From: a virus
IMG/VR virus record: IMGVR_UViG_3300010885_025951
Location: 1-23,412 of that record
DNA: 23,412 bases
Direction: 5' to 3' (one strand)
Position numbers and translations under genes: made by a program. Numbering within the stretch: position 1 is the first letter of the stretch; each line of letters opens with the position of its first letter. Positions 3,377-20,072 of this stretch are shown here, piece by piece. Below the pieces are notes generated by a model. That model was not told where the DNA came from. It saw nothing but the letters and a program-made list of their open reading frames with translations, and made no database searches.

Positions 3377-5986
3377 ATGATAAAAATAATAGGATGTAAT
3401 TCTTTATTTGAAGAATTTGAAGAAGTATCTGTACAAGAATGTTTAAATTATTTTAAAGATTTTAGAAGTATTCAATTAGATACAGAAACTACTGGTAAAG
3501 ACCCTCATACAGCTAAATTACTTTGTTTACAATTAGGTGATAATAATAATCAATTTATAATTGACTGTAGAGTAATTAATGTTTTATTATTCAAAGAATT
3601 AATTGAGTCTAAATTAATTATAGGACAAAATTTAAAATTTGATTATAAAATATTAAAACATGCAGGTATTATTTTAGATAAATGTTGGGATACAATGTTA
3701 GCTGAATGTGTATTATATTGTGGTTATGAGAAATATGGTTATGGTTTAGATAAAATAGTAAAAAGATATTTAGATATTGATCTAGATAAAAATGCTAGAA
3801 GTAGTTTTATTAACACAAATTCAGAACCATTTACTCATACTCAAATAGTTTATGCAGCTAAAGATGTTACCTATTTATCTAAAGTTGCTAGATTACAACA
3901 TCAAGAAGCTGAAAAAAAAGATTTACTTTATTGTATTAATTTAGAGAATGAAGCATTTAAAGCTTTAGCTGATATTGAGTATAATGGTATGATTTTAAAT
4001 AAAGATAAATGGATACATAATACTAAAACTTTTAAACAAGAATTAGATAATATTCAAATAGATTTAGATAAAATTGTAAAAGAAGAATCTAAATTATCTA
4101 AGTATGTACCTGAATATGTACAAGGTAATTTATTTGGCTTTGAAGAACGTGAACTAAATATTAATTATGCTTCTCCTTTACAGATAAAGAATATGTGTAT
4201 AGCTTTAGGTTATAATATAGATTCTACTAATGATCGGGAGTTGACTAAGTTAGTTAATAAACATCCATTCTTTAGTAAGTTACAAGACTATAGAGAGAAA
4301 GCTAAGATTATTAGTACTTATGGTGAAGGATTTCTAAATTATATTAATCCTGCTACTAATAGAGTACATACAAATTTTTGGCAAGTATTAAATACCGGCA
4401 GAGTATCTAGTGGCTCTAAAGAAGATAATGCTCCTAATTTACAGAATATTCCAGCTAAAAACATATTTAGAAATTGTTTTGAAGCTAGACCAGGATATTT
4501 ATGGGTATCTATTGACTACTCAGGTCAAGAGTTAAATCTTATGGCTGATGGTTCTGGTGAAGAAGGATTTATTGATGTACTAAACAGAGGAGAGGATTTA
4601 CATTGTTATGCTGGTAGTATGATGTTTAAAAAAACTATTACTAAAGCTGACAAAGAATTAAGAAATAAGGCTAAAACTATAAACTTTGGCAAGCCTTATG
4701 GCATGGGTCCTCCTAAGTTAGCAGATACTTTACAAATTAGTTTAGAAGAAGCTGATCAATTATTTAAAGAGTATGGTAAATCTTTTCCTAAATTAAATAA
4801 ATGGTTAGAACAACAAGGTAAATTTGGTAAATTAAATGGATATTCTTTAACTTTTGCTCCTTGTAAAAGAAGAAGATTTTATCCTGAAATTGAAACAGCT
4901 AGAGAACTAAGACAACAAGTACAATTTGTAGAAAAAGGTTCTACTGAATCTAAATTTTTATGGAAACAAATATTAATTATTGAAGGACAAATAGAAAGAA
5001 ATTCTATGAATTCACCTATCCAGGGTGAACAATCACTGCCCTGGCTAAATCTTGTTAATTGTCTGGAAGCCTGAAATGGTAATCAGCAGCCAAGCTATAT
5101 AGGGATATATAGAAGGTTCAACGACTAGGTAAAGTATTCTAGAACAGAAGAAATACCCACGAAAGCAAGATATTTTGATATTAAATAAATTACTATTATG
5201 TTTACTCCAAATTATAAATTAGAGTATTCATGAATGAGGCAATGAAAAAATACAGGAAAACTGAAAAATATAAGCTTACACAAAAAGCATATAGATTAAA
5301 AAGACGTGAAAATCCTGAATATGTAGAAAAGTTAAAACAAGAAAAAAAAGAATCTTTTAGAAGAAATTATATTCATAATTTATGGAAAAGGACAAAAGAT
5401 AGAGCTATAAAAAAAAATTTAGAATTTAATTTATTAGAATCTGAGTTAGTTATACCTATATATTGCCCTATTTTAGAAATTCCTTTATTTATAGGAGTTA
5501 AAGGAAATTATGAAAATAGTCCTACTATAGATAGAATAGATAATTCATTAGGATATTTAAAAAGTAATTGTAGAATAATTAGCATGAAAGCTAATACAAT
5601 GAAAAATAATGCTTCTTTAAATGAATTAAAAATGTTTTATAAAAATATTTTTACATATTATCAAAATAAAGATATAGTCTGAACATACAGGAAGAATAAC
5701 TGTATGAATTATAGGATAAAGAACCTATAAGATAACAATAAAGAGTGGTGCAGATATTACTAAAGAAGCTTTAATAGGTGTTAGAAATTTAATTTTACAA
5801 GAATATCTTGATACAGCTTATTTAATTTGTACTGTTCATGATGCTATAGATGTTGAAGTTAGAGAAGATTTAGCTGAAGAATTTGCTAAAAAAATGGAGA
5901 AAATCATGATTGATTGTGGTAATAAATATGTTTCTAAAGTTCAAATGAAAGTTGATACTACTATAACTAAAGAATGGGTTAAGTAA
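3377..5986 (+). CDS. polA: DNA polymerase I family (family A), interrupted by a group I intron
   Basis: Joining 3377-5026 to 5744-5986 gives a 630-aa replicative polymerase. Residues 30-165 are a DEDD 3'-5' proofreading domain (D35-x-E37, N85/D89, Y159/D163). The polymerase domain has the TGRVSS/PNLQNIP segment (340-359), motif A with D380 (DYSGQELN), motif B R429-K433-F437-Y441 (KTINFGKPYG), and motif C H582-D583 in exon 2. No 5'-3' nuclease domain is present; a separate exonuclease at 21829-22608 can supply it. The intron falls on a codon boundary between G550 and S551, so splicing restores NSPIQG-SGADITK. Unspliced reading stops early at 5074. Motif C reads HDA rather than the usual HDE. 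Confidence 0.93.
5027..5743 (+). mobile_element. Group I intron in polA (717 nt)
   Basis: The 5' splice site follows T5026. Exon CCAGGGT (5020-5026) pairs with GCCCTGG (5038-5044) to give P1 with the required U-G pair at the splice site. Core elements are visible: AATCAGCAGCCAAGC (5081-5095), GGTTCAACGACTA ending at 5127, and GATATAGTCT (5671-5680); GACTA 5123-5127 pairs with TAGTC 5675-5679 as P7. Two P9-type hairpins follow (CATACAG 5684-5690 with CTGTATG 5700-5706; TTATAGG 5709-5715 with CCTATAA 5724-5730). The last intron base is G5743. The endonuclease gene sits in the P8 side between the two halves of P7. Confidence 0.92.
5230..5682 (+). CDS. Intron-encoded HNH-type homing endonuclease (150 aa)
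   Basis: The C-terminal half has the pattern YCPILEIPLF, then SPTIDRIDNSLGYLKSNCRIIS and ANTMKNNASL. This is the phage HNH-like family in which D-R-I-D-x-x-x-G-Y-x-x-x-N replaces the classical H-N-H core (D101, D104, N113). The N-terminal 60 residues are strongly basic with a repeated K-x-x-x-T-x-K-Y pattern, likely DNA-contacting. It would cut the intronless polA allele and spread the intron. The frame's last codons (KDIV-stop) lie inside the intron's P7 strand. The ATG overlaps the stop of an 11-codon frame (5198-5233). Activity is inferred from family and place. Confidence 0.85.
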   Translation: MNEAMKKYRKTEKYKLTQKAYRLKRRENPEYVEKLKQEKKESFRRNYIHNLWKRTKDRAIKKNLEFNLLESELVIPIYCPILEIPLFIGVKGNYENSPTIDRIDNSLGYLKSNCRIISMKANTMKNNASLNELKMFYKNIFTYYQNKDIV

Positions 5987-9091: not shown

Positions 9092-9620
9092 TTACATTAT
9101 TCTAAAACTCTTATTTGAAAATCAATATTCTACTTTACAAAAATTATTTCCTGTTACATCTACATTAACTGATAACTTAAAAATATTAGAATATGAAAGT
9201 TATTTAAAAATGACTGTAGATGAATTAGATTGGACTAAGATTAGTACTCAAATATTTTTAAGACAAAAAACTATAGATTTATTTATAGTTAAAAAATCTG
9301 CTTTTCTTACTTGGTGGAATATGTATCCAACTAAAGTAGGTATAGGTAATAATGTTAGAGTATTAAAAACTTTTGATGCTGATACTAATTTAGGTAGAAA
9401 ATGTAAACAGAAATTTGATAGAATTACTAATAATGATCCTATCAAAGAAAATCAATTAATAAAAGGCTTAGAGATTGAGTTAGAGATTAAAAAGAAGTCT
9501 AATAGTATGCAATATATGCAACTAGTAGATGTCTGGTTAAATCAAGAAACTTATCAAAAGTATATTCATTTAATTGATCAACCTATTGAGAATGATAATG
9601 AAAGAACAGATGCTGTATGA
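9036..9620 (+). CDS. Probable helicase-associated replication protein (194 aa)
   Basis: The N-terminal 60 residues look like a winged-helix arrangement (YIILKLLFENQ...LQKLFPVTSTLTDNLKILEYESYLK). The C-terminal half has WWNMYPTKVGIGNNVRVLK, then CKQKFDRI, a helical segment, and SMQYMQLVDVWLNQETYQKY. The Y-P-x-K, then R-x-L, then Y-M-x-x-x-x-x-W-L-N pattern is typical of phage proteins encoded beside DnaB-like helicases, thought to be helicase loaders or replication initiators (DnaD/DnaC-like). The gene overlaps the helicase gene by four bases, which fits that role. The loader function is inference. Confidence 0.65.
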   Translation: MLIQIETENLIKEKITPNDYIILKLLFENQYSTLQKLFPVTSTLTDNLKILEYESYLKMTVDELDWTKISTQIFLRQKTIDLFIVKKSAFLTWWNMYPTKVGIGNNVRVLKTFDADTNLGRKCKQKFDRITNNDPIKENQLIKGLEIELEIKKKSNSMQYMQLVDVWLNQETYQKYIHLIDQPIENDNERTDAV

Positions 9621-10648
9621 GTGAATTAAAGAAAAGAATAAGTGATGGTTTAGATGGTAAATTTGAAGGTTTATCAATAGGATTACCTAAGTTATCTACT
9701 TTTATTTTTGGTATTCAAAGAAGTACTATAGGACTAATAGGTGCAGGTAGCGGTGTAGGTAAATCTACTTTACTTGATTTTATTATTCTTAATGCTTTAG
9801 AAGATGCTGAAAATAAAGGTATAACTTTAAATGTATTTTATAATTCTTTTGAGATAGACAAATTAACTAAAATGTGTAATTGGCTATCTGTAAGAATTTA
9901 TGATAAATATCAAATTATTATACCACCAGAAGTTATTAAGGGTTTTGGTAAACATAGATTAACAGAAAGTCAACAAGAATTAGTTAATTCAGAAATTGAT
10001 TATATAGAAGGATTATTTAATAAAATACACTTTAATTTTAAACCAGAGAATCCTACAGGTCTTTATAAAAGATGCTGGAAATTTATGGAATCTAGAGGTG
10101 AATTTATTAAACAAACTTATATAGATGATAACAATGAAGAGAAAACTAAAATTATTGGTTTTAAGGCTAATAGCCCAAATGAGTATAATCTTATGGTTAC
10201 TGACCATTTATACCTTTTAAAAAAAGAAAGAGAGATGGATACTAAAAGAACTATTGATAAATTTAGTGAATATCAAGTAGAATTAGCCAGATTATTTGGC
10301 TTCAGTTTTATTAATTTACAACAGTTTAATCAAGGTTTAAGTTCAGTAGATAGAGTTAAGTTTAAAGGTGTTGATTTAGCTCCACAACAATCAGATTTTA
10401 GAGATTCTACTAATCCGTTTAGTGATAGTGATTGGGTTATAGGTTTAATGAATCCTTATAAATTAGATATGGATAATTGTCTAGGTTATAATATATCTAA
10501 ACTTAAAGCTAGAATGATATTACTTAAACTAATTAAGAATAGATTATCTAAAGACAATGTGGGTATAGGTTTATTTTCAACATTTGCAGCTGGTAGTTTT
10601 GAAGAATTACCTAAATCAGATATTATTAAATATGAAGACTATCAATAA
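9617..10648 (+). CDS. DnaB-like replicative helicase, RecA-fold ATPase (343 aa)
   Basis: Residues 42-51 (GAGSGVGKST) form Walker A after an IGLPKL segment that resembles the start of DnaB C-terminal domains. NVFYNSFEIDKL matches motif H1a, where DnaB has E-M. VTDHLYLLKKE is the Walker B region with D-H, and FGFSFINLQQFNQGL is the H3-like strand with the sensor Gln. Compared with bacterial DnaB it lacks the N-terminal primase-binding collar, as in many phage helicases. It would unwind DNA ahead of PolA. The gene directly upstream may encode its loader; the next gene (10632) overlaps its end. Confidence 0.88.
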   Translation: MSELKKRISDGLDGKFEGLSIGLPKLSTFIFGIQRSTIGLIGAGSGVGKSTLLDFIILNALEDAENKGITLNVFYNSFEIDKLTKMCNWLSVRIYDKYQIIIPPEVIKGFGKHRLTESQQELVNSEIDYIEGLFNKIHFNFKPENPTGLYKRCWKFMESRGEFIKQTYIDDNNEEKTKIIGFKANSPNEYNLMVTDHLYLLKKEREMDTKRTIDKFSEYQVELARLFGFSFINLQQFNQGLSSVDRVKFKGVDLAPQQSDFRDSTNPFSDSDWVIGLMNPYKLDMDNCLGYNISKLKARMILLKLIKNRLSKDNVGIGLFSTFAAGSFEELPKSDIIKYEDYQ

Positions 10649-10935
10649 TTTACCTGAATTATGGTCTATAAAAATTACAGAAACTAATTTAAAAGTTTTA
10701 AATGATTGGAGATTCATAAAAGGAGCTTTAAAATCTGAACATACAGGGGGTTATTTATTAAATTTTTATAGTTCTCATACAGGTTTTTATGTTTCTAAAA
10801 GTTCATTTATTAAATATAAAAAAAAAATATCCTTTAATTGAATATGAAGATTTTGAAAAATTTGTATTATTTAAAGATTCAGTAATTAATATGAAATATT
10901 TAATAAAATTATTTAAAAAATATAATATAAAATAA
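10632..10935 (+). pseudogene. Small accessory gene of the LPExW family, frameshifted in an A10 run
   Basis: The ATG at 10632 overlaps the helicase gene and gives MKTINNLPELWSIKITETNL, matching the 7383 protein (LPEKWFVIRDENN). That frame stops at 10839-10841 soon after an A10 run (10818-10827). In the frame reached by dropping one A the protein continues YPLIEYEDFEKFVLFKD and ends MKYLIKLFKKYNIK at TAA 10933-10935, which overlaps the next ATG exactly. So the intact gene would encode about 100 residues. It may be a real mutation, a sequencing error in the homopolymer, or a gene rescued by polymerase slippage on the A-run. A longer start at 10584 is unlikely. Confidence 0.75.
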
Positions 10936-12089
10936 TGTTTAAAAAAGATGATTATTTAGTAATAACTATAGATACAAAAAGTAAATGTTTTTTAAAAAAT
11001 CATGTTTATAAACAATATGTAGATAGTAAATATATACAAGTTTATAAAGATAGTGAATTAGAAGAAAATGGTGCTAATTATTTAGATTTTAAATTTAAAG
11101 CCAAATGGAGGTACGCTTTTCCAGATGAAATTTTAGCTTATGATGAAGCTGATCAACCAATAGATATTAAAACAATAAAAAAAGAAAGAAAAATGAATAA
11201 ATTAATGTTAAATGAGCTAGAAAAAACCTATAATAATTTGATTTTACGAAGAAAAACAGTACCTTTGTTTATGTCAAATCCAGGTTTAGGTAAAACTACA
11301 ACAATACATCAATTTCTAGATGATTTAAATGAATCTAATAAAACTAATAAAGATTGGGTTCCTAAAAAGATGTTAAAAATTACTTTAAGTCAAAGGATGC
11401 CAAATGAGGTAGTAGGTATGATGATGCCTAATATTAAAACTGGTAAACTAGAAGTATTTGATAGTTATGAGTTAAATAATTTAAATGATGGAGATATTTT
11501 GTTTATTGACGAGGTATTTAATGGTACTTTAAAACAAACTTTAGATGCGTTCTTAAATTTATTAGAAGATAGAAGTTTACCTTCAGGTAAAAAGATGGCT
11601 GATATTATGATTGTAGCAGCTTCTAACCCACAAGGATTAATAAATCTAACTCCTCAAATTAAAGAAAGATTTGTTAAAATAGATCTTAAATTTAATTCTG
11701 AAGAGTATCAAGCTTATTTAAAACAAGTATTTGCTATGCCAGAAAATCTGTCTTCACTTATTTGTACTTTAGTTAATAAAGAAAAATTTGATGCTGATCA
11801 GTGGAATTATTTTTCACCTAGAAGTATTGAGAAAGCTTTAAACAGAATAGGTTTAGAATTACAAACTACTTATGATGATTTATTAATGCCTATCTTAACT
11901 AAAGAAATAGAGATGCCAATGGACTCAATAGATCTTAATTGTAAGAAAGGAGATAAAATACCTTATTTAAGTTTGTTAAAACTTTTTACTAGAAAGAAAA
12001 ATGAGTTAGCAAGTAATGGAATTAAACTAGTTGAAAAAAAGACTAGAAAGAAAAAAGAGGTAATACCTCAAGAAGAAATAATGAGTTAA
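10935..12089 (+). CDS. MoxR-type AAA+ ATPase with an N-terminal accessory domain (384 aa)
   Basis: The AAA+ core runs from about residue 88: Walker A SNPGLGKTT (114-122), Walker B ILFIDEV (188-194), sensor 1 in IMIVAASNPQG, and an arginine-finger region PQIKERFVKID, as in the MoxR family. Residues 1-85 form an extra domain (FKKDDYLVITID, then WRYAFPDEILAYDEADQPID) like the small proteins at 15442 and elsewhere in this window. MoxR ATPases usually act as chaperones with a VWA protein to insert cofactors or remodel complexes, and a VWA gene follows 17 bases downstream. The C-terminus is Lys-rich. The start is set by the TAATG overlap at 10935. Confidence 0.88.
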   Translation: MFKKDDYLVITIDTKSKCFLKNHVYKQYVDSKYIQVYKDSELEENGANYLDFKFKAKWRYAFPDEILAYDEADQPIDIKTIKKERKMNKLMLNELEKTYNNLILRRKTVPLFMSNPGLGKTTTIHQFLDDLNESNKTNKDWVPKKMLKITLSQRMPNEVVGMMMPNIKTGKLEVFDSYELNNLNDGDILFIDEVFNGTLKQTLDAFLNLLEDRSLPSGKKMADIMIVAASNPQGLINLTPQIKERFVKIDLKFNSEEYQAYLKQVFAMPENLSSLICTLVNKEKFDADQWNYFSPRSIEKALNRIGLELQTTYDDLLMPILTKEIEMPMDSIDLNCKKGDKIPYLSLLKLFTRKKNELASNGIKLVEKKTRKKKEVIPQEEIMS

Positions 12090-12106: not shown

Positions 12107-13045
12107 ATGATACAAAAAATCACAAGTAAAAGAGTAGAATTACCTGTAATTTATTTGGTAGAAAATGAGGAAGATTTTAATACTCTTCCAAAAGGTTTGC
12201 CTTATATTATAGGTACTGAGTCTGAATTACCTTTTATTAGGACTTATTTAGAATTTCAAGTATTATTTAAATCTTGTAGTAGAACAAATTTAGCTATTAA
12301 TTGGCTAACTTGTTTAGAAAAATTAGGTTACAAGAATTTAAGAAAATACAGTTTACAATCAGGAGGCACTTATATAGGAGCTTGTTCTGGAAAAGGTTCA
12401 GATATTGATATAGACACTTTTGTGGAAGATCAATATTTAGTTAATTTTGATAAATTAGCTGAATTAAAAGTTTTACCTGTATGGTTAGATGATTTAAGAG
12501 CTGCTGTTGAAACTAATATTATTCAAGAGGTAACTTTTGATCCTACAGCGTTTAATAGACAGTTAGGATTAAATGTAGGTGCTGCTGGAGTTAAGAGTAA
12601 TAAAAGAAATTTATTAATTCTTGATGTATCTGGTAGTATGCCTAGAGGTGTAGTTAAAACTATTACTAATTTAGCTAAATTGATGTCTAAAAGATTTTAT
12701 GCAGATATTATGCTAACTAGTGGTAAAACTATTCTTATTGATTATGATGATGTACCTAAATCTGATATTATTCAATTAGCTATTGAATCAGGTAATGGTA
12801 ATGAAGGTTTTATGTACAGAGCTATTGTAAAACAATTTAAAGAATATGGTACTGTTATCTCATTTGGTGATGATGATAATCCAGGATGTTATTCTTCAGG
12901 TAAAGAAGAATGTAATTTTAAAGTAGATACTTTATATTCTTTACATACTAATGGTAATAGAACTTCAAATGTTACCGGATATGCTAAATGGTTAACGCCT
13001 AATAAAACGCATATTGTAAAAGATTGGATTAATACAATCGCATAA
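12107..13045 (+). CDS. VWA-domain protein, MoxR partner (312 aa)
   Basis: The C-terminal half holds a von Willebrand A fold with an intact metal-ion-dependent adhesion site: LLILDVSGSMPRG (D173-x-S175-x-S177), then ADIMLTSGKTILIDYDDV, NGNEGFMYRAI and GTVISFGDDDNPG for the later MIDAS loops. The N-terminal 150 residues are unfamiliar, helical, with a Gly/Ser/Asp-rich patch (SGGTYIGACSGKGSDIDID). The pairing with a MoxR ATPase directly upstream is the standard two-gene unit in bacteria and some phages. The substrate is unknown; a phage or host complex could be remodelled. No signal peptide, so cytoplasmic. Confidence 0.85.
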   Translation: MIQKITSKRVELPVIYLVENEEDFNTLPKGLPYIIGTESELPFIRTYLEFQVLFKSCSRTNLAINWLTCLEKLGYKNLRKYSLQSGGTYIGACSGKGSDIDIDTFVEDQYLVNFDKLAELKVLPVWLDDLRAAVETNIIQEVTFDPTAFNRQLGLNVGAAGVKSNKRNLLILDVSGSMPRGVVKTITNLAKLMSKRFYADIMLTSGKTILIDYDDVPKSDIIQLAIESGNGNEGFMYRAIVKQFKEYGTVISFGDDDNPGCYSSGKEECNFKVDTLYSLHTNGNRTSNVTGYAKWLTPNKTHIVKDWINTIA

Positions 13046-13122: not shown

Positions 13123-13629
13123 ATGAACACATTTTTAAAATTAGACGGAGTTAAGTTAAATGCAGCAGGTTATTTAGTAACAGTTGATGGTGAAAAACCA
13201 GTAAATCACACAGCATTTGTACAAGAGCAAAATCAAGCTGAATTTGCTGTAAGAGTAGCTGAAGCTATTAAAGGTAAAAATCTTAAACATTCAAAAGTTA
13301 CAAGCTTAGAACAAATTATGGCTGAAGTACATAGAGATATGAATACTACTGTAGTTACTTCTTATGTTGCAGCTCCAACTGAACCTGAAAGAAAATTAAC
13401 TAAACAATTAGCTGATGAAGCTTTAGAATTTGTTAGTTTTCAAGATAAAAAATCTGATGTTGCTGAAATTAATAAAATTATGCAACAGTATAATACTATT
13501 AATGCTATTGAGCAAGTAGGTGATTATTTTTATGAATGTTTAGTTAAGATGAATCAAATTAAACTTTATAATATTGCTGAAATTCAAGCAGCAGTAACAG
13601 CTATTCAAACAGCTACTTCTAACAAATAA
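13123..13629 (+). CDS. Helical hypothetical protein (168 aa) downstream of MoxR-VWA
   Basis: The protein is rich in Ala, Val, Glu and Gln, and almost entirely helical after a short strand-rich start (FLKLDGVKLNAAGYLVTVDGEKPVNH). Helical parts include AEFAVRVAEAIKGKN, LTKQLADEALEFVSF and YNIAEIQAAVTAIQTA. Its composition and more varied codons (GCA, GTA) set it apart from its neighbours and suggest a well-expressed soluble or structural protein. It has its own 77-bp leader and a terminator 18 bases after the stop. I do not recognise the family. Its place suggests it might be an effector or substrate of the MoxR-VWA pair, but nothing in its sequence proves it. Confidence 0.75.
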   Translation: MNTFLKLDGVKLNAAGYLVTVDGEKPVNHTAFVQEQNQAEFAVRVAEAIKGKNLKHSKVTSLEQIMAEVHRDMNTTVVTSYVAAPTEPERKLTKQLADEALEFVSFQDKKSDVAEINKIMQQYNTINAIEQVGDYFYECLVKMNQIKLYNIAEIQAAVTAIQTATSNK

Positions 13630-13688: not shown

Positions 13689-14432
13689 ATGGAAGAACAC
13701 TTTAATAATGTTATAGACATTTTAAAAAAACAAGATATTGACGCTTGTATTACAGGTTCTTGTATGTTAGGATTTAATCCTGAATGGAATCAAGACATAG
13801 ATGTATTTTGTTATGATAAACCAAGTTTTAATAAGTTATTATTTTATATGTTTTACAATGAGTTATTTATAATAGATGATTCTTTAGAACAACATAAATT
13901 TAATGAGTATATTAATAATGATAAATCTTCTTTAGATTCTATAGGATTAATTACTATTAAATTTAAATATAATTTACTAATAGATGTAAATATTATCTAT
14001 AAGAAATTTCAAAATAATATATTTGATGTATTATCTAATTTTGATTTAGATTTAATAACTACTGGTCATGATATTAAAACAGGTAAACAATTTTCATTAA
14101 GAGAGTCTACAGGACTAGAAGGTACTTGGAATAGATGGAATAAATCTTTTTATAAAACTGATATCTGGAGTACTAAAAGATTACTAAGACAATTTGAAAG
14201 AGTTGTAAAATATACTCATAGAGGGTATAACTTAGATTCTGTTACAGATAAATATATATCTATAGTAGAAGAAATTCTTAAAACAGAAAACTTTTATAAA
14301 ACAGAAAAAGGTACTAAGTTTTATACAGATACTATTCAACAATTTGAAATAGTACTAAAAATATTAAAAATTTGGAGAGTAGAACATGTTATGAGTCCTG
14401 AACAAATATTAATATTAAAAACTTTAATATAA
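13689..14432 (+). CDS. Nucleotidyltransferase-fold protein (247 aa)
   Basis: Residues 20-41 (ITGSCMLGFNPEWNQDIDVF) carry the G-S and D-x-D core of the DNA polymerase beta-like nucleotidyltransferase fold, and a third acidic residue can be seen in LLIDVNIIYKK. Further signatures, FDLDLITTGHDIKTGKQFSLR, WNRWNKSFYKTDIW and RQFERVVKYTHRGYN, match a phage family I remember as predicted nucleotidyltransferases. Such proteins transfer a nucleotide to a protein, RNA or small molecule; the target is unknown. No toxin-antitoxin partner is evident. It is the first gene after a terminator. Confidence 0.7.
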   Translation: MEEHFNNVIDILKKQDIDACITGSCMLGFNPEWNQDIDVFCYDKPSFNKLLFYMFYNELFIIDDSLEQHKFNEYINNDKSSLDSIGLITIKFKYNLLIDVNIIYKKFQNNIFDVLSNFDLDLITTGHDIKTGKQFSLRESTGLEGTWNRWNKSFYKTDIWSTKRLLRQFERVVKYTHRGYNLDSVTDKYISIVEEILKTENFYKTEKGTKFYTDTIQQFEIVLKILKIWRVEHVMSPEQILILKTLI

Positions 14433-14697: not shown

Positions 14698-14952
14698 ATG
14701 ATACAAGAATTTATAAAAAATAATAGTCTTTCTTTAGAACCAGGAAGTAGAAATTCTACAATCACAACTTTAATAGGTTATGCTCAACATAAAGATCTAT
14801 CTAAAGCTGATTTAGAAAAAGAGTTGGAAACAGAAATCAATAATGATTCATTTATTCAAGAAGAAATTGATAGATTATGGATTTATTGTGCAAGTAATAA
14901 TTATAAAGCTTATTGGTCAATGCCTCAAGCAAGTAACCAATGGAAATTTTAA
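14698..14952 (+). CDS. Possible primase-associated PriCT-like protein (84 aa)
   Basis: Residues 14-45 read EPGSRNSTITTLIGYAQHKDLSKADLEKELET. The G-x-R-N-x-x-x-x-x-L-x-G-x-A pattern followed by a short loop and helix is the hallmark of primase C-terminal (PriCT) domains that usually follow AEP/PrimPol catalytic domains on one chain. Then come ERLW-like (IDRLWIYCASNNYKAYW) helices. The next gene, ten bases on, encodes an AEP-like catalytic core, so the pair may be a split primase with the domains in reversed order. The PriCT link is from pattern memory and is only moderately sure. Confidence 0.5.
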   Translation: MIQEFIKNNSLSLEPGSRNSTITTLIGYAQHKDLSKADLEKELETEINNDSFIQEEIDRLWIYCASNNYKAYWSMPQASNQWKF

Positions 14953-14961
14953 TAAGGTAAT

Positions 14962-15435
14962 ATGAAAACATTCCTTCTTAAAAACGGTCATCCTACTATT
15001 AAATGGTCAATGGTTCCTGATAATTGTTTTTTTGAAGGAACTATTCCTCCAGGATATGATTTAGCTGTGTGTCCTACAGATGAAAAACAAGTAATCTTAG
15101 ACGTTGATTGTAAAAATGGTAAAGATGGTTATAGCAATATTCCTCATTTAATAATGATAGAATTACAAGATACTTTTGGTTATAAAACTAAATCTGGTGG
15201 AGCTCATTATTTTATGAATTATACTGGCAATAAATTATTATTAAATACTAGTACTCAATTAGGATTAGATTTAAGAATAGGTAAAAATAAAACTACAGGT
15301 AATAATGGTGGCTATGTTAAATATAATCATACTGAAGATATTAGAAAATGTATGCACCTTATTAAACCTACATCTAATAATATGAATGTATGGTTAGAAA
15401 AATTATTTACTGGAGTTAATAATTTAAAAATATAG
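14962..15435 (+). CDS. Archaeo-eukaryotic-type primase (PrimPol-like) catalytic core (157 aa)
   Basis: The three AEP motifs appear in order: D47-x-D49 (VILDVDCKNGKDG), S78-G-G-A-H82 (TKSGGAHYFM), and D103-L-R105 (LGLDLRIG), followed by a Gly-rich strand GNNGGYVKY. This is the bifunctional primase-polymerase (prim-pol) fold found in plasmid and phage primases, which makes RNA or DNA primers. At 157 residues it is a bare catalytic domain, without helicase or PriCT domain. A PriCT-like gene lies just upstream and a second, DnaG-type primase at 19128. Activity is inferred from motifs. Confidence 0.7.
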   Translation: MKTFLLKNGHPTIKWSMVPDNCFFEGTIPPGYDLAVCPTDEKQVILDVDCKNGKDGYSNIPHLIMIELQDTFGYKTKSGGAHYFMNYTGNKLLLNTSTQLGLDLRIGKNKTTGNNGGYVKYNHTEDIRKCMHLIKPTSNNMNVWLEKLFTGVNNLKI

Positions 15436-15441
15436 TATAAA

Positions 15442-15801
15442 ATGAAAGAATATCCTTTATTATTTAAAAAAGGTGATTATGTAGTATTATTATCTACTTG
15501 TACTGGAGAAGATATATGGAATTATTCTATGCCTATTAATTATGTTTATAAATTAAGAGAAGATTGTTATAAAAATTCTTTTCATGTAGAAAAAGATGTA
15601 CAAACAAATTCAACAAATGGATGGTCTTGTAGTACTTTAAATTCTCTTTTAAATAAATTAAAATTTAGATTAGCTACTGCTGAAGAAATACATATATACA
15701 ATTTTAATGATAGACCTTTTCCTATATCTGATTTAATAAATTATAAAAAACCAGATATTACTTATTTAATAAGCTTATTTAAAAAATATAACATAAAATG
15801 A
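15442..15801 (+). CDS. Small accessory protein (119 aa), FKKGDYVV...ATAEEI...YLISLFKKYNI family
   Basis: The N-terminus LFKKGDYVVLL gives the G-D-Y-V-V strand start, then NYVYKLRE, KFRLATAEEIHIYNFNDRPFPI and the tail DITYLISLFKKYNIK. The R-x-A-T-x-E-E-I-x-x-Y and D-R-P segments are also found, as WRYAFPDEILAYDEADQP, in the N-terminal 85 residues of the MoxR-type ATPase at 10935. It is therefore the free-standing form of that domain. It overlaps the next gene by four bases. Probably a small beta-barrel binding module; function unknown. Confidence 0.78.
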   Translation: MKEYPLLFKKGDYVVLLSTCTGEDIWNYSMPINYVYKLREDCYKNSFHVEKDVQTNSTNGWSCSTLNSLLNKLKFRLATAEEIHIYNFNDRPFPISDLINYKKPDITYLISLFKKYNIK

Positions 15802-16313
15802 TAGAAGAAAAAATTATTTGTAAAAATGTAACTAGTGGTAAATGTTGTGGAAATTGGAATGAGTTTGGTATTTGTAAATTAACTATTCCACCAACTACTT
15901 TACAACCTTGTCAAGCACATGATAAAGAAACTGAAAAGGATGAAAATATTTGGAATAAAGAAAAAGTAAAATTTAATTTAGACCATATTACAGGTAAAGA
16001 TGAAAATTCAGCTACTAAATTTGATACTGGTAAACCTAGTTTTACTAGTATTCCACAATTAGCTTTATTAGAAGTAGCAAAAGGATTTACTATTGGTAAA
16101 GACAAATATGGTCAATTTAATTACAGTAAACCAATGAAATTAACAAGATACTTAGATGCTTTAGGAAGACACAATAATCAATTTTTATGTAGACAAGATA
16201 TTGATGAAAGTGGTGTACATCATTTAGCACTAATAGCTTGTAATGCTTTAATGGCTTTAGACAGTATATTAACTGGTAAAGCAGAAGACGATAGAAATAT
16301 TAATTATAAATAA
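15798..16313 (+). CDS. dATP/dGTP diphosphohydrolase-like protein (DUF5664 type, 171 aa)
   Basis: The C-terminal 100 residues fit the phage family annotated as dATP/dGTP diphosphohydrolase, N-terminal: TKFDTGKPSFTSIPQLALLEVAKGFTIG, then KDKYGQFNY, RYLDALGRHNNQF, DIDESGVHHLALIACNALMALDSI. The paired Asp/Glu and His residues (RH, DESG-x-HH) would hold metal in this all-helical nucleotide-hydrolase fold. It likely changes the deoxynucleotide pool during replication. The first 50 residues are different, with a Cys-rich stretch (CKNVTSGKCCGNWNEFGICK), perhaps a small metal-binding extension. No purine-Z synthesis partner (PurZ) is seen in this window. Confidence 0.75.
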   Translation: MIEEKIICKNVTSGKCCGNWNEFGICKLTIPPTTLQPCQAHDKETEKDENIWNKEKVKFNLDHITGKDENSATKFDTGKPSFTSIPQLALLEVAKGFTIGKDKYGQFNYSKPMKLTRYLDALGRHNNQFLCRQDIDESGVHHLALIACNALMALDSILTGKAEDDRNINYK

Positions 16314-16317
16314 ATAT

Positions 16318-16614
16318 ATGACAAATTTAGAAAAAATTGATCTTTTGTTAAAATTAACAGAAGCAAAAATCTCTCTTCCTAAAATTAGTTTAGTTAGAGA
16401 AAGAGGACAAGACGGTAGAATGACTGATGTACCTAAAATTACAGGTGGTATAGAAGTAAGTTTATTTGGTGAGCAAGATTTAATGTTGTTTAGAACAATG
16501 CTTCAAAAAGAAGTTAAAGAATTATTACCTTTTGAATCTTCAAAAAAAGAAAATCCAGCTCAGTTAGCAATGGATTTAGAAACAGAAACTGATCACCAAA
16601 CAACACAAGGATAA
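16318..16614 (+). CDS. Hypothetical protein (98 aa) upstream of the Sak4-like gene
   Basis: A helical N-terminus (NLEKIDLLLKLTEAKISLPKIS), a charged stretch with RERGQDGRMTD, a strand pair (GGIEVSLFGEQDLMLFRTML) and an acidic, Gln/Thr-rich unstructured tail. Its stop overlaps the next start in a TAATG junction, so it is made together with the recombination ATPase. No known domain is recognised; it could be an accessory factor for Sak4 or SSB, by position only. Confidence 0.7.
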   Translation: MTNLEKIDLLLKLTEAKISLPKISLVRERGQDGRMTDVPKITGGIEVSLFGEQDLMLFRTMLQKEVKELLPFESSKKENPAQLAMDLETETDHQTTQG

Positions 16615-18116
16615 TGGTAAGAGATTATTATAAAGTATTATTAGTCGGTCAATCAGGTAAGGGTAAAACTTTTTCTTTTAGAAATATGAATCCTGAAACT
16701 ACTGGATTTGTAAATGTAGAAGATAAACCTTTACCATTTAAAAACAAATTTAAAAATCATGCAAGACCTAAAAATACTATAGAAGCTAAAACAGCTCTAA
16801 AAAAATATGCTGATGATCCTACAATTACAGCTATTTGTTTAGACAGTTTAAGTGCTTATATGGATATGCTTTTAGGTGAATGTAGAGCAACTAAAAAAGG
16901 TTTTGAGATATGGGGAGCTTATAATGAGGAAATTGGTAAATTTCTTAATTATATTAAATCTATTCAAAAAGAAGTATTTATTACAGCGCATTATGAAGTT
17001 TTAGGTATAGAAGGTAATCAAGAAAAGCGTGTTAAAGTTAAGGGTGAAAGTTTGCCCTTGTAAAAGTGGTTTAATTGCTGGAATATCTTAAAGTTTTTGA
17101 CACTACAACATAATTTGAAAAAATAAGTGTGAAAGTTTGAAAAGTCAAAGGATAAGAGTATATTTGTAAAATGATACAAAATACTTACAATAGACAATCA
17201 GCAGCCAAGCCTCTGTCAAATGAGGAAGGTTCAACGACTATCCCGGAAGGGAGTACTGGTAGTAATACTGGGAAAAAGCCACTATATTTAAATGTTATTT
17301 ATAAAATAACAAATATAATTAATAATAAAATTTACATTGGTTCAGCCTCTTTTTATGATAAAAGAAAAGGAACTCATATTTCTAGATTAAGAAATAATAC
17401 TCACAAAAATAGATATTTACAATCTTCTTATAATAAACATGGAGAAAATAATTTTAAATTTGAAATTATTGAATATGTTAATTCACAAAGACAATTATTA
17501 AATAGAGAACAATACTGGTTAGATTTAACTGAATGTTATAATAGAAATATAGGTTATAATATTTCAAAAACAGCAGGTTCTAATTTAGGTAATAAAATGT
17601 CTGAAGAAAGTAAAAAGAAAATAGGTGATTTTTGGAGAGGTAAAAAATTTAGTAAAGAAAGAATAGAGCAATTAAAAAAAGATAGAACTTTAGAACAAGG
17701 AAAAGCAGTTAATGTTTTTGATAATGATATGAATTTATTATATACTTTTGAAAGTATGTCAGAAACATCAAGAAAATTATCTGTTTCTATTGCCTCTATT
17801 TCTAGACAATGTAAAAAAGGTTTTAATACTAAAAAAGTTAATTATATTTTTAGATATAAAGATATAGTCTAGTCTTTATGGAAACATAAAGTTAATATAA
17901 ACGAAAGAGTGGGAAGGTGTAATTGAGAAAGAATTTACTATTGTTCTTTATGCTGATAATAAATTTAATGATAAAGGATTACCTGAATATCATTTAAATG
18001 CAGTACAAGAAGATACTTCAGCTAAATGTCCTCCAGATTTATTAGGAGAAGGTATTACAAAAATAAATAATGATTGTAATATGATATTAGAAAAAATAAT
18101 AGAATTTACAAAATAG
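16614..18116 (+). CDS. Sak4-like RecA-fold recombination ATPase, interrupted by a group I intron
   Basis: Joining 16614-17045 to 17904-18116 gives 214 residues. GQSGKGKT (12-19) is Walker A, NVEDKPLPF follows the first strand as in this family, AICLDSLSAY is the Walker B strand, EVFITAHYEV resembles the sensor strand, and RVKVKG-KEWEGVIEKEFTIV spans the splice junction and reads as one continuous conserved segment. Sak4 proteins are single-domain RecA-like ATPases that, with an SSB, help pair homologous single strands in phages. The SSB gene is the next gene. Without splicing the protein stops at 17063, losing its last 70 residues. Confidence 0.85.
17136..17166 (+). promoter_or_regulatory. 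Candidate promoter inside the intron, driving a leaderless endonuclease gene
   Basis: TTTG (17136-17139), a 19-base spacer and TATATTTG (17159-17166) form a full match to the Bacteroidetes -33/-7 promoter. The ATG of the endonuclease (17171) lies five bases after the final G, the same distance as at 1198/1203. The transcript would start at or next to the start codon and so would leave out the intron's 5' half. Confidence 0.6.
17171..17872 (+). CDS. Intron-encoded GIY-YIG homing endonuclease with NUMOD domains (233 aa)
   Basis: The GIY-YIG core is at residues 42-58 (VIYKITN...KIYIGS), with R72, catalytic E113 (NREQYW) and N130 (GYNIS). Then comes a NUMOD3 motif (GNKMSEESKKKIGDFWRG, about 140-157) and a NUMOD1-like helix-turn-helix (VNVFDNDMNLLYTFESMSETSRKL, about 180-203). 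These DNA-binding modules are the usual C-terminal parts of I-TevI-like enzymes. The first 38 residues are low-complexity because they read through the intron's conserved core; no later in-frame ATG precedes the catalytic domain, and the promoter position supports this start. The last codons (KDIV-stop) lie in P7. Confidence 0.92.
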   Translation: MIQNTYNRQSAAKPLSNEEGSTTIPEGSTGSNTGKKPLYLNVIYKITNIINNKIYIGSASFYDKRKGTHISRLRNNTHKNRYLQSSYNKHGENNFKFEIIEYVNSQRQLLNREQYWLDLTECYNRNIGYNISKTAGSNLGNKMSEESKKKIGDFWRGKKFSKERIEQLKKDRTLEQGKAVNVFDNDMNLLYTFESMSETSRKLSVSIASISRQCKKGFNTKKVNYIFRYKDIV

Positions 18117-18137
18117 TAACAAATAAAAATATATAAT

Positions 18138-18971
18138 ATGCAAGTAAGAAAGCAAGAAGAAATTCAAGAAGTACTAAGATTTACAGGAATGTGCCCTTTT
18201 CAGATAGTGGCTTTAAATCCATCATTAGAAGAATTAAAAGCAATAGGTGTAAATTATATTCAAAATGAACCTACTTATGTTACTGATAAAGATGGAGTAA
18301 TAGGTTTACGTTTAGATTTCTGGATTAAAAATTCAGTTGGAGAAGATTATGTAGCATTAGATGGTACTATTCAAAATAGTGGGCCAATTATTGATAAAGT
18401 AAGTTATTTTATTGATAATAATATTACTAAAGCTAGTACAGGTAAAGTTAAAGTTATGAATGATTTACTACAAAATTCTTGGAGTGATTCTATTGAAACT
18501 TTAGTTGAGAATGAGAAAATGCACTGGTTTAGCAAAAATCATAATTTGAGATTAGCTAAGAATGGTGAGGTAGAAATTTTAACTTTATTCCAAAAACTAT
18601 TGAATTTAGTATTAGGATACAAAGATACTGTAGGTGATGAAGTTAAATTTACAACTCCTTGGAAAGATATTGTAGCTGGTAATTTGAAAGAATTAAGAGG
18701 TTACATTCAAATGGCTTTGAAAGAAGGTAATGGTTTAACTTTTAACAGAGGTGTTGTTAATAAAGATGGTAAATTGTATAATGCAACTTACACTAAATAT
18801 TTCCAATCTTCTAAAAATAAGAAAACTACTTATATGGAAAAAGCTCTTATTGAGCAAGAATTTAAAGCTGATTATCAAGGTAGTTTGAAGTTTCAACTTT
18901 ATACTGGAACTAGTATTCCTACTCCAAGTAAAGCTGAAGCAGTTACTGAAGAAAATTCATTACCATTTTAA
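18138..18971 (+). CDS. Single-stranded DNA-binding protein (277 aa)
   Basis: The protein has strand-rich segments with many aromatic residues (RLDFWIKNSVGEDYVALDGTIQ, KMHWFSKNHNLRL, GKLYNATYTKYF) expected of an OB-fold ssDNA-binding protein. It ends EENSLPF, an acidic tail with a terminal L-P-F like the D-D-x-I/L-P-F tip by which SSBs recruit partners. It lies directly after the Sak4-like ATPase gene, its usual companion. It would coat single strands during replication and recombination. No global similarity to E. coli SSB is evident; the call rests on tail, size and neighbourhood. Confidence 0.75.
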   Translation: MQVRKQEEIQEVLRFTGMCPFQIVALNPSLEELKAIGVNYIQNEPTYVTDKDGVIGLRLDFWIKNSVGEDYVALDGTIQNSGPIIDKVSYFIDNNITKASTGKVKVMNDLLQNSWSDSIETLVENEKMHWFSKNHNLRLAKNGEVEILTLFQKLLNLVLGYKDTVGDEVKFTTPWKDIVAGNLKELRGYIQMALKEGNGLTFNRGVVNKDGKLYNATYTKYFQSSKNKKTTYMEKALIEQEFKADYQGSLKFQLYTGTSIPTPSKAEAVTEENSLPF

Positions 18972-18986
18972 TAATCAATAAGTTAT

Positions 18987-19119
18987 AAAATAATTAGGTA
19001 CAACACAATTAAACTTCTGTGAAGTGTTGCTAAGTTTATTCCAGGTGATTTAGTTTATTGAGTGAAGGTGAAAGTCCTTTCTTGAACTTACAAATCTATA
19101 AACAAAGCCTAATTATTTT
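18987..19119 (+). ncRNA. Candidate pseudoknotted RNA leader upstream of the primase gene
   Basis: A long closing stem, ATAATTAGG (18990-18998) with CCTAATTAT (19108-19116), encloses a multibranched region and runs into a T-run ending eight bases before the primase ATG. Inside are CAACAC (19001-19006) with GTGTTG (19024-19029), TAAGTT (19031-19036) with AACTTA (19085-19090), and AAGG (19065-19068) with CCTT (19076-19079). GTTTAT (19053-19058), inside the second helix, can pair with ATAAAC (19098-19103) outside it, making a pseudoknot. No open frame fits. It may be a cis-regulator (riboswitch- or attenuator-like) or a separate small RNA. It matches no class I can name. Confidence 0.5.
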
Positions 19120-19127
19120 TTATTATT

Positions 19128-20072
19128 ATGAAAGCAAGGACTCAATTAACATACGAAGATATAACATCTAAAATAGATGAAGAATCTTTATTTAGATATT
19201 ATACAAAATTTGAAAATATAAATCATAAATTTTGTTGTCCTGTACATGATGATAAAACTCCTAGCTGTAAAATATTTTTAAATAGTCCTTTGATATATAA
19301 ATGTTTTGGCTGTGGAAGTACTGGTACTATTATTCAAGTAATTACTACTAGATATAATTGTACTTATCATGAAGCTTTACAAATAATAGCTAATGATTTT
19401 AATATTGAAAATACTTTTATCAATAAAAATAGTGTAGGATTTATTTTACAAGAAAATCATGTAAAAAAGATTAATAATACTTTAATTAAAGTACGATATA
19501 CTAATTGGAATAGTAAGTTATTAGAATATTGGAATCAGTATTCTATTAGCTTAAAAACACTAGAAAAATACAACATTAAACCAATAGATTATTACTGGAT
19601 TAACTATAGCAGATTTAAAACTAATTTTGGTTTTGCTTATAGTGTTAATAACAAGTTTAAAATATTGCAACCTAATGATGAAGATTTTAAATGGACTAGC
19701 AATTGTACAATAGAAAATATACAAGGTTTTATGCAATTAGAACCAAGTAATTTACTTATAATAACTTCATCTTTAAAAGATGTAGCTTGTTTAAATGAAA
19801 GATTTAATTTACAATGTATAGCTCCTTCTAGTGAGAATAGTTATTTACCAGAGGGGAAAATTGCCTGGTTAAAAAATAATTATAAAAAAATTATTGTCTA
19901 TTTTAATAATGATAAAGCTGGTATTGCAGCCAGTAAAGATTATAAAGAGAAGTATGGATTTGATTATATATTAAATCCTAAAGAAATATCAAAAGACCCA
20001 TCAGATTGTTTTAAAAACAATGAAGAAACACAATTAACAGAATTTTTAAAAATAAATAATATAATAATATGA
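19128..20072 (+). CDS. DnaG-type primase: CHC2 zinc finger plus Toprim-like domain (314 aa)
   Basis: Residues 36-62 hold the CHC2 zinc site C37-x2-H40...C59-x2-C62 (CCPVHDDKTPSC...YKCFGCG), which reads template sequence in DnaG primases, followed by the typical helical stretch YHEALQIIANDFNI. Residues 208-292 form the Toprim region: LLIITSSLKDVACL, where E. coli DnaG has a catalytic Glu, and VYFNNDKAG (257-265), where the first Asp of the D-x-D pair is Asn. So two of the canonical acidic residues are changed, and catalytic activity is uncertain. It lacks the C-terminal helicase-binding domain. A structured leader lies directly upstream. Confidence 0.85.
   Translation: MKARTQLTYEDITSKIDEESLFRYYTKFENINHKFCCPVHDDKTPSCKIFLNSPLIYKCFGCGSTGTIIQVITTRYNCTYHEALQIIANDFNIENTFINKNSVGFILQENHVKKINNTLIKVRYTNWNSKLLEYWNQYSISLKTLEKYNIKPIDYYWINYSRFKTNFGFAYSVNNKFKILQPNDEDFKWTSNCTIENIQGFMQLEPSNLLIITSSLKDVACLNERFNLQCIAPSSENSYLPEGKIAWLKNNYKKIIVYFNNDKAGIAASKDYKEKYGFDYILNPKEISKDPSDCFKNNEETQLTEFLKINNIII

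Follow-up and report, generated by a model that had tools for sequence, protein, structure and literature searches.

Why would a phage that encodes a DnaG primase carry, in the same replication region, a second primase of an unrelated type? The question is raised by a 23.4-kb fragment of an uncultured virus from IMG/VR (record IMGVR_UViG_3300010885_025951, positions 1 to 23,412; hereafter the window), in which an initial annotation had placed two primase-type open reading frames (ORFs), at 14962-15435 and 19128-20072, about 4 kb apart. Both exist, with a gap of 3.7 kb, and they represent two unrelated primase types, an archaeo-eukaryotic primase (AEP) and a CHC2-Toprim primase of the DnaG type, as that annotation had proposed. 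We lean modestly toward a reading in which the phage has two priming systems, a crAss-type DnaG and a split primase comprising the AEP and a PriCT-1-like partner, and in which, within one clade where an active-site Asp of DnaG has become Asn (the Asn clade), DnaG is weakened and much of the priming falls to the AEP/PriCT pair. The first system would be a standard crAss-type DnaG with zinc finger and Toprim domain, and the second a small AEP primase encoded by a coupled gene pair, one gene for the catalytic core (14962-15435) and one for a helix-bundle subunit (14698-14952). We infer the complex and its priming from the motifs, fold-level matches, gene order, conservation and co-occurrence observed here.

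The AEP core and its PriCT-1-like partner

Judged from its sequence, the ORF at 14962-15435 (+ strand, 157 residues) encodes a minimal AEP/Prim-Pol core in which none of the three catalytic motifs is lost. The superfamily motifs I (DxD), II (xxH) and III (hD) are present as D47-V-D49, S78GGAH82 and LD103LR, in agreement with the D47xD49, SGGAH and DLR of the initial annotation, and D47, D49, H82, D103 and R105 are invariant across 13 orthologues, the aligned rows being 49-100% identical. Profile matches of the window protein are weak (Pfam Prim-Pol, E 0.046, 14.6 bits vs. a cut-off of 22.8; PHROG 695, 1e-4), and the orthologue in contig L026, 52% identical to it, reaches 26.6 bits, above the same Prim-Pol cut-off. 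The fold was assessed on an AlphaFold2 model in which the partner and the AEP were joined, with two stop codons read as Gly purely as a modelling linker (mean pLDDT 80, pTM 0.56; this model supports no claim of contact between the two proteins). Foldseek placed AEPs (pRN1, NrS-1) at ranks 1-10 for the AEP part (E 0.01-0.07; next unrelated entry 0.64), and VIA-align gave matches of moderate strength to AEP structures (Z 5.8-6.2 over 112-131 residues). A protein lacking the AEP fold, which the initial annotation had named as an outcome that would undo its proposal, was not found, the ten best PDB matches of the model all being AEPs. A pseudogene is ruled out by the conserved motifs together with the low ratio of nonsynonymous to synonymous substitution rates (dN/dS) in close pairs (0.15-0.31).

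A scan with the AEP alignment, together with a DnaG scan, yielded AEP orthologues in 22 contigs besides the window. Relatives were not seen among 114 pattern matches in bacterial genome contigs and none were found in plasmids; AEP profiles gave chance matches only against PDB sequences; matches to Lactobacillus and Enterococcus phage records were weak (E at least 0.02, nothing stronger); and the AEP, nucleotidyltransferase (NTase) and VWA proteins of L026 had no or merely marginal matches in 50,697 phage records. Pfam PF09250 run over whole crAss genomes was uninformative, having missed a known AEP carrier, and the search was redone with our own profile, which detected no AEP in the reference crAss genomes and AEP-less long contigs searched.

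Two features go beyond the initial annotation, namely a PriCT partner gene and a conserved module around the AEP. The partner, a presumed AEP accessory subunit, is a PriCT-1-like helix-bundle protein of 84 residues (14698-14952, + strand), assigned from its linkage, its model and a weak PriCT_1 match (PF08708, E 0.0048 for the window and 0.034 for L121, both short of the cut-off). It lies immediately 5' of the AEP in every AEP locus, across two DnaG clades, at a length of 83-91 residues; its stop overlaps the AEP start by 1 nt in 12/22 contigs, the two genes are 9 nt apart in the window and the 5 relatives nearest to it and further apart in 4 contigs, and a fused PriCT-AEP ORF was seen in none of the 23 contigs. 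Extra sequence of 166-626 nt stands between the two genes in L121 (15689-16314), L164 (1000-1485), L152 (4103-4289) and L114 (9835-10000). In the model, the PriCT part is all-helical and matches the C-terminal helical part of the primase RepB' (3h20 219-306, Z 4.6).

The helix bundle of pRN1 is indispensable for primase activity, binds the template and the first two nucleotides, and passes substrates to the catalytic domain (PMC8076596, PMC11009956), while PriCT domains have been proposed to be related to PriL (PMC5862659). Because of this proposed kinship and the requirement for the pRN1 bundle in initiation, it is plausible that the split PriCT/AEP pair represents, by analogy, a miniature of PriL/PriS. 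On the same analogy, we surmise that PriCT and AEP form a complex and make primers, the PriCT protein starting the primer and the AEP, as in pRN1, extending it for the family A DNA polymerase (PolA).

The Toprim site of the DnaG primase

The ORF at 19128-20072 (+ strand) encodes a 314-residue crAss-type DnaG primase with CHC2 and Toprim domains that stops after the Toprim part. Its CHC2 zinc finger is well recognized (PF01807, E 4e-14; ligands C37, H40, C59 and C62) and its model aligns with the primase domain of T7 gp4 (Z 17.9 over 173 residues); the NCBIfam dnaG equivalog model scores it at 68 bits vs. 283.6 required. The Glu and DxD of canonical bacterial DnaG Toprim domains are replaced by S214 and NND, within ITSSLKD at 212-218 and FNND at 259-262, and alignments of 18 to 146 relatives confirmed what the initial annotation had read from these motifs, the Glu position being occupied by S214 and the first DxD Asp by N260. 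The hallmarks of crAss-type DnaG, namely [KS]SLKD, E236, the second DxD Asp (D262) and KDxSD (D290, D293), are all present. As a separate observation, the window clade and L009 retain the CHCC zinc ligands, of which the first three are replaced by S, R and D in nearly all other crAss-type DnaGs.

The initial annotation had called the Toprim site degenerate and had suggested, as one reading, that the DnaG-type protein keeps template or helicase binding while the AEP makes primers, or that each acts at a different stage. The loss of the Glu, however, carries no information on the AEP: in crAss-type DnaGs this position is Lys in 50/66 and Ser in 16/66, and E236 is invariant (65/65 rows), both counts covering rows that have a letter at the position and were retrieved without using that residue as a criterion. 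The whole subfamily shares the loss, with or without an AEP, and another Glu is invariant; decay of DnaG caused by the AEP is therefore ruled out as a reading of the Glu position. The possibility that this DnaG subfamily naturally uses other acidic residues, raised at the outset as a counterargument, thus largely holds for the Glu; the Asn is specific to one lineage.

In the sole outgroup, Eggerthella phage LE2-3, the canonical Glu is present and E236 is absent. The loop that follows the second Toprim strand in the DnaG model, where Toprim domains carry an invariant Gly (PMC6755086), contains E236, and we hypothesize that this residue may partly replace the lost Glu. The invariance of E236, its absence from an outgroup with the canonical Glu and its place in the loop would also favor a DnaG that is fully active via this re-sited Glu, with the Asn tolerated and the AEP/PriCT pair being an additional primase with a different task, such as initiation at specific origins, repriming or repair; purifying selection on DnaG and the lack of such an AEP in the reference crAss phages searched point the same way. 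We regard a fully active DnaG as possible rather than probable, and it leaves unexplained why a near-invariant first Asp is Asn solely in an AEP-carrying clade.

This Asn is found in the window, L002, L004, L008, L026, L119, L121 and L120, which form one clade (SH-aLRT 97). It is present in 7/7 DnaGs of one AEP-carrying clade and in their short-contig relative L120, the only member without an AEP in its contig, which ends within the module after MoxR and VWA. In comparison, the position is Asp in 124 DnaGs without an AEP in the locus, the remaining AEP-less rows being gaps or one truncated row. As the Asn clade arose once, its link with the AEP counts as one evolutionary event. In the OLD nuclease, with which DnaG shares its site layout, the Toprim Glu and the first DxD Asp directly bind metal A (PMC6755086); the window DnaG therefore lacks both usual metal-A ligands. 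The pattern of the Asn clade would fit a DnaG that gave up one metal ligand once the AEP had been acquired. That part of the initial proposal may stand in a narrower form, as the Asn tracks one AEP-carrying clade and may be linked to it. In our preferred reading of two priming systems, the split AEP primase would work beside DnaG and may even take its place within the Asn clade; the likeliest consequence there would be a DnaG whose catalysis is weak, altered or gone, with much of the priming carried by the AEP/PriCT pair.

Several points weigh against this reading: 1) 11 AEP carriers in another DnaG clade retain the first DxD Asp, and therefore an AEP by itself does not release DnaG, nor does Asn mark every AEP carrier; 2) D218, D262, D290 and D293 are retained by DnaGs of the Asn clade, and the window protein also has the four zinc ligands; 3) DnaGs of the Asn clade are under purifying selection (dN/dS ~0.2, window vs. 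L008), and therefore the protein is still selected; 4) Asn is still able to bind metal weakly; 5) the PriCT assignment is based on sub-threshold profile matches (E 0.005-0.03) together with a structural match at Z 4.6, and pLDDT is < 50 over the first AEP strands of the model; 6) separated pRN1 domains, when mixed, make no primers (PMC8076596), and a split enzyme therefore requires a real interface between its subunits.

The six-gene module and the replication block

The PriCT and AEP genes are the last two of a module whose order, MoxR-VWA-g13123-NTase-PriCT-AEP, is kept wherever the contig reaches, in 23 contigs including the window. All on the + strand, the four preceding genes encode a MoxR-type AAA+ ATPase (10935-12089; Pfam AAA_5 3e-8, bpMoxR 9e-4) that stands before VWA in other AEP loci as well; a VWA-like protein (12107-13045), without a Pfam match and assigned from its position and its D-x-S-x-S motif LDVSGS, a MIDAS-like motif also found in the family consensus; g13123, an uncharacterised 168-residue protein (13123-13629) listed for its co-occurrence with the AEP; and a Pol-beta-type NTase with GS...DxD (13689-14432; NTP_transf_2 E 0.015, short of the cut-off), in which G23, S24, D36, D38 and an LRQFER stretch are invariant in 5 diverse copies. 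By single-sequence search, each of the four occurs in 25-29 of the 32 AEP-carrying loci (g13123 in 27, the NTase in 29), which include some overlapping copies of one contig, and in 0/61 AEP-less loci of at least 14 kb; a profile search gave the MoxR gene a few weaker relatives outside AEP-carrying loci. Orthology of this MoxR/VWA pair to that of reference crAss phages is unproven, as the CbbQ-like ATPase annotated in cr125_1 matches the window MoxR with just 20 bits.

The AEP tree conflicts with the DnaG tree, L164 and L152 being sisters by DnaG but having different AEP types, and because of this disagreement we consider the AEP to have been exchanged between phages. Such changing of partners, the fixed gene order with strict co-occurrence of the AEP with the NTase and the MoxR/VWA pair, and the lack of a helicase fused to the AEP would all suit a role in which AEP and PriCT are not chiefly makers of replication primers and instead belong to a MoxR-VWA-g13123-NTase module with some other task (end processing, gap filling, counter-defence or RNA-modifying). 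We deem this improbable; AEPs rely on the PriCT domain to initiate primers, and in every locus of sufficient length the module sits in the replication block, with PolA, SF2 helicase, DnaB, Sak4 and DnaG. Rather doubtful, in our view, is a stronger form of the two-system reading that we favor, whereby a split two-subunit AEP primase, the phage counterpart of PriS/PriL, would have spread through crAss-like phages as part of the six-gene module and, within a single clade, replaced a catalytically dead DnaG kept for another role, i.e. a change of primase type in progress.

We class the window virus as a crAss-like phage because its DnaG matches Crassvirales and longer relatives encode crAss-type structural genes. 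This DnaG has matches in 165 phage records, with most of its length covered in 88; among annotated matches, the best of those examined are Crassvirales, and it groups among Crassvirales primases. The window is a piece of the replication block, and the phi14:2-type major capsid protein (at most 40% identity) and the terminase are those of longer relatives with the same genes (G003, G021-G024, G026). Phages of this kind rank among the most abundant in the human gut, and to our knowledge their replication is almost untested.

All recognisable genes of the window (GC 24%) are on the + strand and comprise PolA, SF2 helicase, DnaB, MoxR AAA+, VWA, g13123, NTase, PriCT-1-like, AEP, Sak4, SSB-like, DnaG and a phrog_107 exonuclease. 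The 5' exon of PolA (3377-5074; DNA_pol_A 4e-56) is followed by a group I intron at 5075-5750 (Rfam RF00028, E 1e-9, below gathering score), which holds an HNH-like endonuclease ORF (5230-5682); the C-terminal PolA exon resumes near 5744. The DnaB-type replicative helicase lies at 9617-10648 (DnaB_C 1.6e-11). Another group I intron, at 17063-17920, splits the gene of the Sak4-like ATPase (5' exon 16614-17063; PHROG 124, 2e-18); this intron (E 2.5e-7 and 1.8e-5, below gathering score) holds a GIY-YIG-like ORF (17171-17872). Immediately 5' of DnaG, the protein at 18138-18971 has no family match in Pfam or PHROG and a counterpart upstream of DnaG in many crAss-type loci; its "SSB" label is inferred from position in annotated crAss genomes. 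A tRNA-Arg (TCT) gene is present at 985-1058.

Comparison with known systems

As far as searched, three features are new: the occurrence of a split AEP/PriCT pair in crAss-like phages, the module to which this pair belongs, and the Asn confined to one clade. If active, the pair would be the smallest two-subunit AEP primase known to us, and it would offer a natural test of how a helix-bundle subunit starts primers, a step that fails in pRN1 upon domain separation. The DnaG series, with the Glu lost everywhere, a new invariant Glu and an Asp lost in one clade, makes the limits to rebuilding a Toprim primase active site testable.

The pair resembles the primase-polymerases pRN1 ORF904 and NrS-1 in catalytic motifs, best fold matches and helix-bundle partner; in those enzymes, however, the domains are fused with the catalytic part first, and pRN1 has a downstream helicase domain, whereas the crAss pair is encoded by separate genes, PriCT first, with no fused helicase. 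The InversePrim family of PrimPol-PV1 likewise has PriCT-1 before the primase domain, but as one polypeptide with a RepA helicase (PMC5862659); with two proteins and no RepA helicase, the crAss pair falls outside that family. By analogy with cellular PriS/PriL it would comprise a catalytic AEP subunit and a separate helical accessory subunit, while the phage helper has only 84 residues, is without the large Fe-S subunit and lies in a phage module.

Precedents for the coexistence of both primase types are known. Bacillus phage 0305phi8-36, described in 2007, encodes one primase of the AEP type and one of the DnaG type, the helicase-binding domain being absent from its DnaG-type enzyme, but its AEP is of the PF01896 type and lies beside DnaB on another genome arm, and the portions of that report available to us describe neither a PriCT split nor loss of the DnaG active site (PMC2147016). 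The crAss-type DnaG of Yutin et al. 2021 belongs to the same subfamily and replication block as the window DnaG, and the available portions of that report give one DnaG primase and do not mention AEP/PriCT (PMC7886860). In archaea, a Toprim DnaG is kept alongside the AEP primase PriSL in a changed role, as an exosome subunit; it retains the Toprim Glu (E175), crucial for its in vitro primase activity, where the window DnaG has Ser (PMC4227792).

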